Source: Lachnospiraceae bacterium
GTDB taxonomy: Bacteria > Bacillota > Clostridia > Lachnospirales > Lachnospiraceae
Assembly: GCA_017618195.1 (NCBI GenBank)
Contig: JAFZUW010000056.1
Location: 20,199 to 84,198 of the forward strand
Reading direction: 5' to 3'
Length of the DNA: 64,000 bases
Part shown: one piece after another, positions 26,791 to 63,916 of the stretch
Layout of the letters: the number at the start of each line of letters is the position of its first letter
Numbering within the stretch: position 1 is the stretch's first letter
Program-made: the position numbers and the translations under genes
The notes under the pieces: model-generated
Database searches by the model: none
Told to the model about the DNA's origin: nothing
The model's input: the letters and a program-made list of their open reading frames with translations, nothing else

Positions 26791-26835
26791 CCTCCTAGTA
26801 TTTTTTTAAGGTGAGGATGGAATTGCGAACTCACC
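26791..26835 (-). promoter_or_regulatory. Possible preQ1-I riboswitch before queT
   Basis: Minus strand: stem GGTGAG/CTCACC, loop starting TTCGC, then an A-rich tail (TTAAAAAAATACTAGGAGG) that carries the ribosome binding site. Order and length match preQ1-I aptamers (small hairpin, A-rich 3' tail folding back, RBS in the tail). The loop is slightly longer than in the B. subtilis example and the second pseudoknot helix is not clear by eye, so this is suggestive only. Confidence 0.45.
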
Positions 26836-27044
26836 ACTTGTCGGATGTCCGCTCTGCGGACGTGCGACCTGCGCGCAACGCGTCGAGCGAAGCTCGAATC
26901 TCAATCGCGTTGTGCTCCTTCACTTGTCGGATGTCCGCTCTGCGGACGTGCGACCTACGCGCAACGCGTCGAGCGAAGCTCGAATCTCAATCGCGTTGTG
27001 CTCCTTCATTTGTCGGATGCTCGCTCTGCGAGCGTGCGACCGTT
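26835..27044. repeat. 86-bp tandem repeat with hairpins, two and a half copies
   Basis: Copy 1 begins at 26835, copy 2 at 26921, partial copy 3 at 27007. Copies 1 and 2 differ at very few bases. Each has a hairpin GTCCGC-TCT-GCGGAC, a second CGAGC-GAA-GCTCG, and CAACGCG/CGCGTTG closing over the second. In copy 3 the first stem reads GCTCGC-TCT-GCGAGC: two base pairs are changed on both sides, so pairing is kept. No gene lies inside. Confidence 0.9.
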
Positions 27045-59839: not shown

Positions 59840-61441
59840 ATGAAGATTATATGTCCGGCATGCGGAAAGGAAACCGAAGGCGGTTTTATGTTTTGTATGA
59901 ACTGCGGCAGCAAGATCGGCGAGGCTGCAGCCGTTAAGGCGGCCGAAGAGGCTGACGCGCTCATCGAAAAAGCGGAGGAAGCGGCAGAGGAAGTTTCGGA
60001 AGCGGTTGATGAAACCGTGGCGGAAGCGGCCGAAACCGTGGAAGCGGCGGTTCCCGAGATTCTGGAACCCGTTAACGAAGTATTTACACCCGTGAATGCG
60101 TTTGCGGAAACGGCTTCCGATGTGAAGGAAACCGTAACCGAAGCAGCGGAAAAGGCGGAAAGCGTTGCGGACAATATCGTTCCGGAGCCGGCCGCGGCAC
60201 CCGTTCAGCCTGCACCTGCACAGCCTGCGGCACCCGTTCAGCCCGCACCCGTACAGCCTGCTCAGCCGACCGCACCCACATACGGCGCGGGAGTTTACGG
60301 AGCGGCTACCGTGGCGGTATTCCCGCCGTCCGGCACCGAACAGACTTCAAACGCTACGCAGAATGTGCAGCAGAATTACAGTCAGACGTATCAGCAGCCG
60401 TACTCGCAGCAGTATCAGCAGCCTTATGCGCAGCAGTATCAGCAGAACGCGCAGTATAACGGACAGTATCAGACTCCGTATTCGACTCCTTACGCAGCTC
60501 CGATGCGTGCGGTTAAGCCGGAAAAGGAGAAGAAGTCGCTCGGCGCGGGACGCAGAGTACTGGCATTTCTGCTCTGTATATTCCTGTTCGGCTGCGGATT
60601 GGTATCGCTTCTCGTATTCGGGATCCGCAAAGCCTTTTCTCCCGAAAACCTGATGGAAGCCGTAACCGATACATCCGTCATTACCAAGATGGACGTTGCC
60701 GATCTGACCGGAAGTGAAGCGGACAGAGGCAAGAGTGTTGCCGAATACATCATCGAACAGATTCCCGAGGAGCAGCGCGCGCTGTACCCCGAGCTTAACG
60801 AAAAGAATCTCGAGATGCTTCTGAAGGATAAGGAAGTTAAGAAGCTGATCTCGGGAGTAGTGGACGGAGCCGTTGATTTTCTTACCGGTGAGGAAGACGA
60901 ATTCGCAGTGGATGCCGATAAGATCGTTTCCGTTTTGGAGGACAAAGCGGACGTTATCGAAGAGTATACCGGAAAGAAACTGAAGAAAGAAGATTATGAC
61001 GCGATCCGCGACGGAATTGAGGAATTCAATGAGGAGCAGGCTTCCCAGCTGACCAGAAACGGCGGCGACGGATTTGAGACCGGAATGAAGATCATCCGTT
61101 TCTTCTTCTCGGATAAGCTTCTTTATATCATGTACGGAATCACCGGATTCTTTGCACTCCTGATCCTGCTTGCATGCGGACGCTTCGTGGATTCCGGTCT
61201 CATTCATATCGGCGTTACCGGAGCTCTTGTCGGCGGACTGGTATTCGGCGGCGTTACCCTCGGGCAGAACATGTTTGAGGAGTTCGCGGAGGATCATCTC
61301 AGCACCGTTTACATCAGTATGATCCAGGATGCCGTATTCCGTCATTTCGACAGGGCCGGACTGGTAGTTCTCTTTGCCGGCATCGGTCTCATCATTGTCG
61401 GCGTTGTATGGAAGGTTGTACGTTTCAGTGTTTCCGAATAA
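59840..61441 (+). CDS. Zinc-ribbon membrane protein with low-complexity linker
   Basis: 533 residues from ATG 59840 with GGGAGG five bases upstream. N-terminal zinc ribbon CPACG...CMNCG (about 5-24), an acidic Ala/Glu/Val helix-forming region (30-120), Pro/Ala repeats (PVQPAPAQPAAP, 130-160), Gln/Tyr-rich repeats of QQPYxQQY type (190-235), one membrane helix (FLLCIFLFGCGLVSLLVFG), an outside domain of about 150 residues with EEQRALYPELNEKN, and three more helices at the end. Function unknown. The low-complexity part may help assembly or phase separation. Followed closely by an ABC gene. Confidence 0.75.
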   Translation: MKIICPACGKETEGGFMFCMNCGSKIGEAAAVKAAEEADALIEKAEEAAEEVSEAVDETVAEAAETVEAAVPEILEPVNEVFTPVNAFAETASDVKETVTEAAEKAESVADNIVPEPAAAPVQPAPAQPAAPVQPAPVQPAQPTAPTYGAGVYGAATVAVFPPSGTEQTSNATQNVQQNYSQTYQQPYSQQYQQPYAQQYQQNAQYNGQYQTPYSTPYAAPMRAVKPEKEKKSLGAGRRVLAFLLCIFLFGCGLVSLLVFGIRKAFSPENLMEAVTDTSVITKMDVADLTGSEADRGKSVAEYIIEQIPEEQRALYPELNEKNLEMLLKDKEVKKLISGVVDGAVDFLTGEEDEFAVDADKIVSVLEDKADVIEEYTGKKLKKEDYDAIRDGIEEFNEEQASQLTRNGGDGFETGMKIIRFFFSDKLLYIMYGITGFFALLILLACGRFVDSGLIHIGVTGALVGGLVFGGVTLGQNMFEEFAEDHLSTVYISMIQDAVFRHFDRAGLVVLFAGIGLIIVGVVWKVVRFSVSE

Positions 61442-61454
61442 GAAGGTATTCTGC

Positions 61455-63041
61455 TTGAATAAATGGAAGAAAACAATTTTAACCGCGGCCGCCGTCCTTT
61501 TGTGGATAGGACTGTGGGAATTTGCTGCATACCGGCTGAATAAGCCGGTATTGCTGCCTTATCCCATGACGGTATTCCGCACGCTTATCGGCATGCTTAA
61601 AGACCGGCAGTTCCTTGCCATCGTATGGGGAAGCTTCCGGCATGTGACGGCGGGCTTCCTGCTCGCATTGGCAGCAGGCGTTCTGCTCGCGGTGATCAGC
61701 AGCCTGAGCGAAGTGATCGAAACCCTGTTGATGCCCGGCGTAAAGCTGGTCAAAACGGTTCCGGTCGTGTCGTTTATTATTCTGCTGCTCTTTTTTGTAA
61801 AACCCGAGAAGATCGGGCTTGTCATTTCGCTTTTGATGGTATTTCCCGTCGTGTATGAAAACGTACGGAAAGGCATCACGTCGACCGACACGCGCCTCAA
61901 GGAGGCGGCGAAGGTGTTCCGGCTCCCGTTCGGATCGCGTCTGTCCTGCATGCTTATTCCGTCAATGATCCCGTATACGGCGGCGGCATGCTCCGCGGGA
62001 CTCAGTCTGTGCTGGAAGGCGGGCATCGCGGCGGAGCTGATCGCGCAGGCGCCGAAATCCATCGGACACGAACTCTATTATTCGAAACTGTATGTGGACG
62101 CGGAAGCCGTGTTTGCCTGGACGATCATCATCATCGCCGTCAGCGTCCTCTTTGAAAAGGTATTTCTGATCCTGTTCCGTCTCTTAACGGTATCCTTCAG
62201 CAATCCGACGCTTTGGAAGCACCGCGGCAGACTGATCCGTTTCCTTCTGTGGGGTAACCCCGGAGCAAAGAAGGAATCGGGCGCCGATGAGAAGATGCAG
62301 GCGGAAAATGCCGTCCCGGACGGAAGCGCCGCGGAAACCGCGCGGCAAGCAGGAAGCACTTCGGAAGCGGCAAAGGCGGGCGCGGACGGCACAGAGGCCG
62401 CGCAGAACGCGGAAGTCTCCGGCCGGTCCGAAGAAGAGACCTTCTCAGCCAATCCGGTACTTACGCTTGACGGCGTCGGAAAGGATTACGACGGCAGGGC
62501 GGTTCTTTCCGGTATCAGCCTTTCGTTAATACCCGGAACCGTAACGATTCTTTCGGGACCTTCCGGAATCGGAAAGACGACGCTTCTTCGGATACTGCTC
62601 GGACTGGCCGAACCGGATCACGGAACCGTAACACGCACGGACGATGCGGTCATGTCGGCAGTGTTCCAGGAGAACCGTCTGTTTGAACAGCTGTCCGCAT
62701 CCCGGAATGTGCGCATCATACCGAACGGCCCGGACCGCAGCGAAGCGGACGCGCTTTTAAGAAGCGCGGGGATTACGGAAACCGAAGGCAAGGCGGTGTC
62801 CGCATTTTCCGGCGGAATGAAGAGAAGGGTTGCATGGTGCCGTGCGCTGGCGATCCGCTCAAGGATCATTCTGCTTGACGAACCGTTCACGGGCCTCGAT
62901 GAAGCGAAGAAAGATGTCATGATCCGATTGCTGAAGGAACGCAAAGGCAACAATGCAATTGTAATTGTGACACATAATCCGTCAGAAATTCAGAAAATTT
63001 CAGATAATTTTGAACGCGTTTCATTTGTGAAGCTGGGCTGA
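61455..63041 (+). CDS. ABC transporter permease-ATPase fusion (SsuC-SsuB/TauC-TauB type)
   Basis: 528 residues from a TTG with AGAAGGT seven bases upstream. Residues 1-255 are a six-helix permease of the nitrate/sulfonate/taurine family (KLVKTVPVVSFIILLLFF, TDTRLKEAAKVFRLPFGSRL). Then about 70 residues of Ala/Glu/Gly-rich linker, and an ABC domain (about 330-528): Walker A SGPSGIGKTTLLRIL, signature FSGGMKRRVAWCRAL, Walker B IILLDEPFTGLDE. The two halves are normally separate genes. No binding protein gene is in view; it may lie past the window or be unlinked. Substrate unknown. Confidence 0.82.
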   Translation: MNKWKKTILTAAAVLLWIGLWEFAAYRLNKPVLLPYPMTVFRTLIGMLKDRQFLAIVWGSFRHVTAGFLLALAAGVLLAVISSLSEVIETLLMPGVKLVKTVPVVSFIILLLFFVKPEKIGLVISLLMVFPVVYENVRKGITSTDTRLKEAAKVFRLPFGSRLSCMLIPSMIPYTAAACSAGLSLCWKAGIAAELIAQAPKSIGHELYYSKLYVDAEAVFAWTIIIIAVSVLFEKVFLILFRLLTVSFSNPTLWKHRGRLIRFLLWGNPGAKKESGADEKMQAENAVPDGSAAETARQAGSTSEAAKAGADGTEAAQNAEVSGRSEEETFSANPVLTLDGVGKDYDGRAVLSGISLSLIPGTVTILSGPSGIGKTTLLRILLGLAEPDHGTVTRTDDAVMSAVFQENRLFEQLSASRNVRIIPNGPDRSEADALLRSAGITETEGKAVSAFSGGMKRRVAWCRALAIRSRIILLDEPFTGLDEAKKDVMIRLLKERKGNNAIVIVTHNPSEIQKISDNFERVSFVKLG

Positions 63042-63179
63042 AAACGGCGGAAAAGGAACGCAATTCTGAAAACTCGCCCAAAAATGATGGAAAATAGCAA
63101 GAAAATGCGCAAATTGTCAGAATATTCTATTAAAAATCGTGAAATTAGAAAATATTTAGTAATAAATGGCAAAATTGTA

Positions 63180-63208
63180 TTGACAAATATAATACCCGGT
63201 GGTAAAGT
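63180..63208 (+). promoter_or_regulatory. Promoter of the repeat-array transcript
   Basis: Perfect TTGACA, 17 bases, TAAAGT in AT-rich DNA after the last gene. Only stops and short frames follow. Confidence 0.7.
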
Positions 63209-63285
63209 ATAGACAACAAAAGAAGAGAAAACAATCCGAAAGAACAAACGGATCGGCCGAGAAAAGGCCAATAAAAACGGAAGAG

Positions 63286-63776
63286 GTGAGACCGATGTAC
63301 TAAGCAGCAGCCGATCATAATGACGGAAAGCGACTGATTAACAAACTGAAAACACCGATAAAGGATGGTAAACTCCAATGGGACACCGGACATAACTGAA
63401 GAAAACGAAGTGTAAAATGAAAGTCAATGTTAAGAAGTCAATTCATATAGATTGGAAATAAAACAGGAAGGTACACTCCAATGGGAACGTAAATTGGTCT
63501 ATATAAAAGCAAATATCACGAAAGGCAGGTACACTCCAAAGGACAACTAAGTTGAACTACCCAAAACGATATTATGAAAGGTAGGTATACTCCAAAGGAA
63601 ATATTAACTGATCTACCCGAAACGATATTATGAAAGGTGGTATACTCCAAAGGATACCTAAAACGATCTACCCGAAACGATATTATGAAAGGCAGGTACA
63701 CTCCAACAAAAACATAAGTTGATCGACCCAAATCAAATTGTTAAGAAATGGATGGTACAGACCAATGTACTGAGTT
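63286..63776 (+). repeat. Non-coding tandem array of about eight 55-59-bp units
   Basis: The core GGTAYACTCCAAAGGA occurs (with changes) at 63367, 63470, 63528, 63584, 63639, 63695 and 63754, with spacing 58, 56, 55, 56 and 59 from the second on. Inner units are alike over nearly their full length (AACGATATTATGAAAGG before the core, GATCTACCC after). The last unit (GACCAATGTACTGAG) is matched by a first unit at 63286-63305 (GACCGATGTACTAAG). Period is not a multiple of three, and no long frame exists on either strand with coding character. Possible stems: CTACC with GGTAG between units, GGTAT/ATACC inside one, GTACA/TGTAC in the last. A promoter precedes and a terminator follows. Confidence 0.85.
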
Positions 63777-63814
63777 GAGTGAACTGAATCAAAAAAAAAT
63801 AATATAATAACATA

Positions 63815-63850
63815 AGAGCTGCTGCATATGAAATGCCGTAGCTCTGCTTT
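63815..63850 (+). terminator. Terminator of the repeat-array transcript
   Basis: AGAGCT pairs with AGCTCT, with further GC and CAT/ATG pairs inside, followed by GCTTTT. Confidence 0.7.
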
Positions 63851-63890: not shown

Positions 63891-63916
63891 AGGGTCAGTC
63901 CGTGGGGACTGACCCT
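63891..63916. terminator. Perfect 10-bp hairpin AGGGTCAGTC/GACTGACCCT
   Basis: Ten pairs, six-base loop; on the minus strand a T-containing tail follows weakly. It may end a gene coming from the right on the minus strand. Confidence 0.55.

Follow-up and report, generated by a model that had tools for sequence, protein, structure and literature searches.

A conserved tandem array of Shine-Dalgarno and mini-ORF modules in Lachnospiraceae that looks like an RNA engaging ribosomes

What is the function of a tandem array of diverged repeats that has a promoter of its own and is found only once in its genome? The array lies near the end of a 64,000-nucleotide stretch of contig JAFZUW010000056.1 from a Lachnospiraceae bacterium (referred to here as the window), the end of which is also the end of the contig. 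From the letters of the window the original prediction read it as a promoter-driven non-coding RNA with many similar sites, and a stand-alone RNA is supported by the analysis described here. The element, at 63180–63850, consists of a promoter, eight cores and a hairpin (Table 1). The perfect -35 and good -10 that had been claimed are confirmed, and the exact TTGACA is retained by most relatives. Eight cores are present, as proposed, but the spacing of 55–59 bp applies only from unit 3 onward, the first two spacings being 82 and 103. TRF gave a period of 56 with 4.8 copies over 63465–63732, and a repeat finder gave six copies with spacings of 103, 58, 56, 55 and 56. The proposal that the array has defined ends with a variant core holds, with GACCrATGTACTrAG in both end units (63291 and 63761), each of which is a Shine-Dalgarno followed by ATG-TAC-stop. 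The array is also AT-rich, as had been noted, with a G+C of 0.33–0.43 against 0.47–0.66 in the upstream gene. The predicted hairpin-T terminator stands in part: the hairpin is visible by eye, but its T run is weak and the terminator scan did not call it. The homologous hairpin in one relative (L031) is called as a terminator, and clear terminators are found in many relatives. Elsewhere in the window, at 26835–27041, there is a separate 86-bp tandem repeat (2.4 copies, 95% match).

Table 1. Features of the array locus, in window coordinates.
Feature	Position	Strand	Core	Description
Fused ABC permease-ATPase (single 555-aa ORF)	61374–63041	+		neighbour outside the RNA; Pfam PF00528, PF00005
CodY-like box	63112–63126	+		AATTGTCAGAATATT; centre 61 nt upstream of the -35; 2 mismatches to AATTTTCWGAAAATT
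Promoter	63180–63185 (TTGACA), 63203–63208 (TAAAGT)	+		17-nt spacer; TG ahead of the -10
Unit 1	63280–63303	+	63285	Shine-Dalgarno GAAGAGGTGA; mini-ORF ATG TAC TAA (63295–63303)
Unit 2	63360–63395	+	63367	mini-ORF ATG GGA CAC CGG ACA TAA (63378–63395)
ATAGATT box	63447–63453	+		between units 2 and 3
Unit 3	63462–63492	+	63470	mini-ORF ATG GGA ACG TAA (63481–63492)
Unit 4	63520–63550	+	63528	no start codon; AAG GAC AAC TAA (63539–63550)
Unit 5	63576–63633	+	63584	no start codon; AAG at 63595; frame-0 stop only after 12 codons
Unit 6	63632–63661	+	63639	no start codon; AAG GAT ACC TAA (63650–63661)
Unit 7	63687–63717	+	63695	no start codon; ACA AAA ACA TAA (63706–63717)
Unit 8	63745–63773	+	63754	mini-ORF ATG TAC TGA (63765–63773)
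Hairpin, then GCTTTTGG; likely terminator	63815–63845	+		weak T run; by eye
Stronger terminator-like hairpin	63891–63916	+		called by scan; possible second 3' end

The array is real, single-copy and conserved. It was found by blastn in 19 of the 22 genus genomes, including 13/13 of those of best quality, and because 19/22 hold it the array is more than chance; in a twentieth genome (G008) a pattern search located four clustered cores. A 48-position unit model matched 121 of 299 Lachnospiraceae genomes at E 0.01 or better, where about three would be expected by chance, many of them with several matches 50–60 bp apart. When 84,980 named species genomes were scanned for a pattern of two units, 104 stretches were obtained, most titled as Lachnospiraceae or its genera (Butyrivibrio, Pseudobutyrivibrio, Blautia, Roseburia, Lachnoclostridium, Herbinix) and the remainder as unclassified Clostridia or Bacillota, with one labelled Acetivibrio and one Streptomyces. 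The last (L165), taken as an expected chance match, was removed, and 24 of the 104 (L180–L203) were left out of the analysis. In a class-wide sample 17 of 291 genomes matched at E 0.001 or better, 12 of them from other families. The search for homologous arrays in related Clostridia that had been suggested was therefore positive, from the genus through Lachnospiraceae and beyond. The suggested search for a conserved adjacent gene found no neighbour common to different genera. Within the genus the fused ABC permease-ATPase lies upstream of the array wherever the contig reaches, with varying content downstream, and the neighbours in Butyrivibrio, Pseudobutyrivibrio and Blautia are different in each genus. 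With a promoter, a terminator and no neighbour shared between genera, the array looks like a stand-alone transcript, and since the neighbours differ between genera its action is most likely in trans. In one sub-clade of the genus (L037–L043 and L100) two of the units are separated by an insert of 220–230 nt that contains blocks like GGCCGCAGAATTTATTTG and ATAGATGTTACC.

The original prediction missed that each repeat is a module of a Shine-Dalgarno (SD) and a mini-ORF. The SD is accompanied by a core near GGTAYRGWCC and, at a fixed distance, by a codon, after which a stop in the same frame usually follows within six codons. In the genus set, of 150 units in 20 loci, the codon starts 11 nt after the start of the core, or 10 nt in unit 1; it is ATG in 86 units, AAG in 50, ACA in 12 and CCG in 2. 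A stop within five codons is present in frame 0 of 146 of these units, compared with 34 and 48 in the other frames, and the late frame-0 stop of unit 5 is the one exception among the 150. For the wider statistics 467 distinct units from 119 loci (20 genus, 20 other-genus and 79 named) were found with a matrix ending before the codon, the background of which was two matches in 307,391 shuffled bases. Identical units were counted once. The genus and named sets overlap partly, some named contigs being the same assemblies. The units share descent, so the counts overstate independence. The codon is ATG in 187, CCA in 112, AAG in 78, CCG in 28, TTG in 26, ACA in 20, GTG in 2 and something else in 14, leaving over half of the units without a start codon. 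A frame-0 stop within six codons is seen in 195 of the 215 start units (other frames 105, 71 of which are the ATGA overlap, and 59), 134 of 141 CCR units (38 and 59), 75 of 78 AAG units (19 and 39) and 19 of 20 ACA units (1 and 7), in each case far above the mean for shuffled downstream sequence (83, 71, 33 and 8, respectively). With one locus per genus, from 20 other genera and the window, the figures are 45/51 for the start units (other frames 24 and 14) and 43/45 for the non-start units (12 and 19); for the other ATGs within these loci the figure is 891/5167.

The stops TAA, TAG and TGA interchange, at distances of 2 to 5 codons in both the start and the non-start classes, and ATG, TTG and GTG interchange at the start position, TTG being nearly limited to the last unit (25/26). 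In 100 of the 141 CCR units the stop is at an identical distance of three codons, and with its stop mostly at one fixed distance the non-start class could possibly be a non-translational motif. The claim that the frames are broken is true for one long ORF, but every unit has its own mini reading frame. A single broken long ORF was rejected, as indels before the core do not come in multiples of three and the non-start units have no steady upstream in-frame start; any start codon in the open frame-0 stretch was found for 95 of 252 non-start units, the other frames giving 57 and 61. Ribosome sites in general do not carry this core. The core plus ATG, AGGTAYRGWCCNATG, has 41 matches in the 22 genus genomes, 35 of them within arrays, with none for the reversed pattern, and the six matches outside arrays all have CCC or CCT before the ATG.

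The spacing of the SD is fixed as well: the end of its predicted duplex lies 7 nt ahead of the codon in 454 of the 467 units (203/215 start and 251/252 non-start). The median duplex energies are -10.1 kcal/mol for ATG units, -12.15 for TTG/GTG, -13.9 for CCR, -13.4 for AAG and -13.3 for ACA, with -9.6 kcal/mol as the reference from the best start of each of 47 window genes. The energies are lowest for the non-start classes and therefore it is the units without a start codon that are predicted to pair best with the anti-SD. Long pairing of the spacer with 16S rRNA adds little, pairing past the SD to the 16S 3' end gaining only about 1 kcal/mol relative to a shuffled spacer; the 16S gene of the genome itself was not found in its assembly. 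On the statistics of frame and spacing the repeats are very probably translation modules. A lead for the coupling of poor codons to strong SDs, though no test of the array RNA, may be provided by S. aureus, for which the available part of PMC13009471 describes AUU and AUA as conserved start codons which, with a strong extended SD, reach about 10–30% of the expression obtained from AUG. The two would be alike in combining a strong or extended SD with a poor start codon near the optimal spacing. As far as that part of PMC13009471 goes, the S. aureus codons are starts of normal genes, whereas in the array CCR, AAG and ACA stand in tandem units without a gene.

The core might instead be the site of a binder, with the RNA acting as a protein or RNA sponge through GGTAYRGWCC and its purine-rich flank and the short frames being incidental. 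Conservation of the core does exceed the need of a plain SD, more than half of the units are without a start codon, and an ACC that could pair with the GGU of the core is enriched downstream (52 of 78 AAG units against 24 expected). This possible pairing, noticed by eye, cannot covary because the core side is invariant, and a role for it in local folding is possible. RNAalifold on 43 AAG, 72 ATG and 58 mixed units gave two invariant G-C pairs and no covariation, and the suggestion that the inner units fold alike is not borne out; for the entire window RNA the predicted fold is somewhat more stable than those of shuffled sequences (z -1.87). No CsrA, the best-known GGA binder, is found in the 22 genus genomes, with the E. 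coli, B. subtilis and T. maritima controls positive. The CsrB-like titration that had been put forward, or any CsrB/RsmZ-type RNA, was rejected on this absence and on the lack of supported hairpins in the aligned units. Against a sponge in general, the stops keep to one frame despite changing type and distance, the three start codons interchange and the spacing between SD and codon is fixed, and we consider it unlikely.

The ends of the arrays bear on a second alternative, that of an attenuator controlled by ribosomes, where translation of the last mini-ORF, with its stop at the terminator, would set the read-through into the next gene. Among arrays with a called terminator, 43 finish with a start unit. 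The distance between the stop and the stem is -4 to +1 nt for 20 of these and -16 nt for another 12, placing the stop at the base of or inside the stem in 32; in the other 11, the window included, it is 23–263 nt away. However, 38 of the 81 arrays with a called terminator end in a non-start unit, none of them with the stop within 12 nt of the stem.

Outside the family, ten of the 12 matching genomes (L205–L207, L210, L212, L213 and L215–L218, in families f8, f13, f21, f35 and f53) share a one-unit design of about 220–480 nt. This has a 5' unit with an ORF of one or two codons after the ATG (MR, MRN, MYR and similar), CACGACGGTG and TTCGCCTTTTG as shared boxes in the middle part, and at the 3' end an ORF (mostly encoding MLDIKSEQK) the stop of which (TGA, TAA or TAG) is inside the terminator stem in 10/10. 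These one-unit RNAs of other clostridial families are seemingly undescribed. In two further families of the order (L221, L223) at least two cores are seen close together by eye. Four weak single-unit matches outside the family (L219, L220, L222, L224) lie in short ORFs directly upstream of genes with secreted-protein- or lipoprotein-like N-termini, where the same module may be used as a leader ORF. The placing of the stop in the one-unit RNAs would suit an attenuator, but the neighbouring genes differ between genera with no constant gene downstream, at one locus (L034) a gene faces the array from the opposite strand, and an end near the terminator is also common among ordinary genes. An attenuator is thus quite improbable.

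That the RNA is a source of tiny signal peptides (for example MY, MK and MGT, or MLDIKSEQK in the other families) is very unlikely. The start and stop signals look real and the last peptide is conserved among the one-unit RNAs, although that conservation partly overlaps the terminator stem, the inner-unit peptides vary widely in sequence and length, and over half of the units lack a start codon. We give as little weight to the mini-ORFs serving only to shield the RNA from decay while its task lies elsewhere. Boxes outside the units are partly shared: of 107 distinct arrays, 34 have ATAGATT/G within the RNA (17.7 expected), and the one-unit RNAs have the two middle boxes. However, most of the window RNA consists of units, and their number varies, with 2 to 11 found per locus, while the design is kept; for protection a few would do.

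Other identities were dismissed. The units are diverged, the linkers partly conserved and the unit number and order kept among near relatives, and on this a CRISPR array was rejected, in line with the original prediction; the promoter, the terminator and the selection on stop codons indicate an RNA and not the binding array for a DNA-binding protein that had also been offered; a mobile element was rejected with no match to the element in phage or plasmid records; and an Rfam family was rejected with no match above the gathering score of Rfam 15 in the window, and none besides tRNA in 18 named relatives, the matches being weak by E-value only.

How transcription might be controlled is suggested by the box upstream of the promoter. 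With up to three mismatches to AATTTTCWGAAAATT, which we take to be the CodY-box consensus, a site is present upstream of the -35 in 54 of 97 distinct promoters, compared with 7.1, and at most 12, in dinucleotide shuffles. For 36 of the 54 the centre falls between -57 and -74 and clusters around -60 or -71, two positions separated by about one helical turn. In the ten one-unit RNAs no good CodY-like box is seen, the best match to the consensus having 4–5 mismatches. A CodY gene is present in 21 of the 22 genus genomes. Two sequence marks of a CodY regulon are found, a box at a fixed place and CodY in the genome, and we infer that CodY may act at the array promoter, as an activator.

From its sequence, then, this looks like an undescribed RNA that engages ribosomes rather than encoding an ordinary protein. 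The start units (ATG, TTG, GTG) would support translation cycles of a few codons. The non-start units (CCR, AAG, ACA), with stronger SDs and with spacing and stop kept, would retain 30S subunits while initiating inefficiently, and a ribosome that nevertheless started there would be released immediately. Acting in trans, the RNA would be a decoy for ribosomes or a gauge of translation capacity, with its transcription coupled to the nutrient state via the CodY-like site, probably an activator site. We rate such a trans-acting decoy or gauge at somewhat below an even chance; the stricter reading, in which the units trap 30S subunits, is more doubtful. Equally tentative is the fullest form of the proposal, a new class of trans-acting RNA whose 30S traps and ribosome mini-cycles take up initiation capacity according to nutrient state, and which arose by multiplication in Lachnospiraceae of an ancestral one-unit clostridial form. 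Among the points against this explanation, unit 5 breaks the frame, and 43 of the 97 promoters have either no CodY-like box or a poor one.

If the proposal is correct, dominant gut genera such as Blautia and Roseburia carry an RNA made of almost nothing but ribosome starts and stops, and relatives in other clostridial families share such an RNA. It would be a naturally occurring system in which to study 30S sequestration, start-codon discrimination where there is no start codon and nutrient-controlled translation capacity. It would also mean that RNAs without covarying structure, invisible to covariance-based surveys, can be detected by selection at the level of the reading frame.

Several known systems share parts of this design. 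Minigenes, such as phage lambda bar and, reportedly, one in axe-txe, likewise have an SD and then a frame of a few codons with a stop. Membership as a minigene, by SD spacing, start codon and in-frame stop, extends to 215 of the 467 units, 195 of them with the stop within six codons; the array differs in having several units per locus in a conserved stand-alone transcript, over half of them without a start codon. The titrating RNAs CsrB and RsmZ also present many similar GGA-bearing sites on one RNA of 350–700 nt, but here the genus has no CsrA, the sites are not presented in hairpin loops and the stops are under selection. Ribosome attenuators and leader peptides have a short ORF with its stop at the terminator, whereas the array has many ORFs and no constant downstream gene. 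No published description of such an RNA was found among the matches listed, and in the available part of the text of PMC11109978 the terms Roseburia, Butyrivibrio, Blautia, Lachno- and 'short open reading frame' are absent. The raiA motif, or ModT, described in the available part of PMC11706538 as a structured large bacterial non-coding RNA, is similarly a stand-alone conserved clostridial RNA with its own promoter and terminator; in contrast to ModT, as it appears there, the array has no Rfam match and no covarying structure, and it is the translation signals that are conserved.
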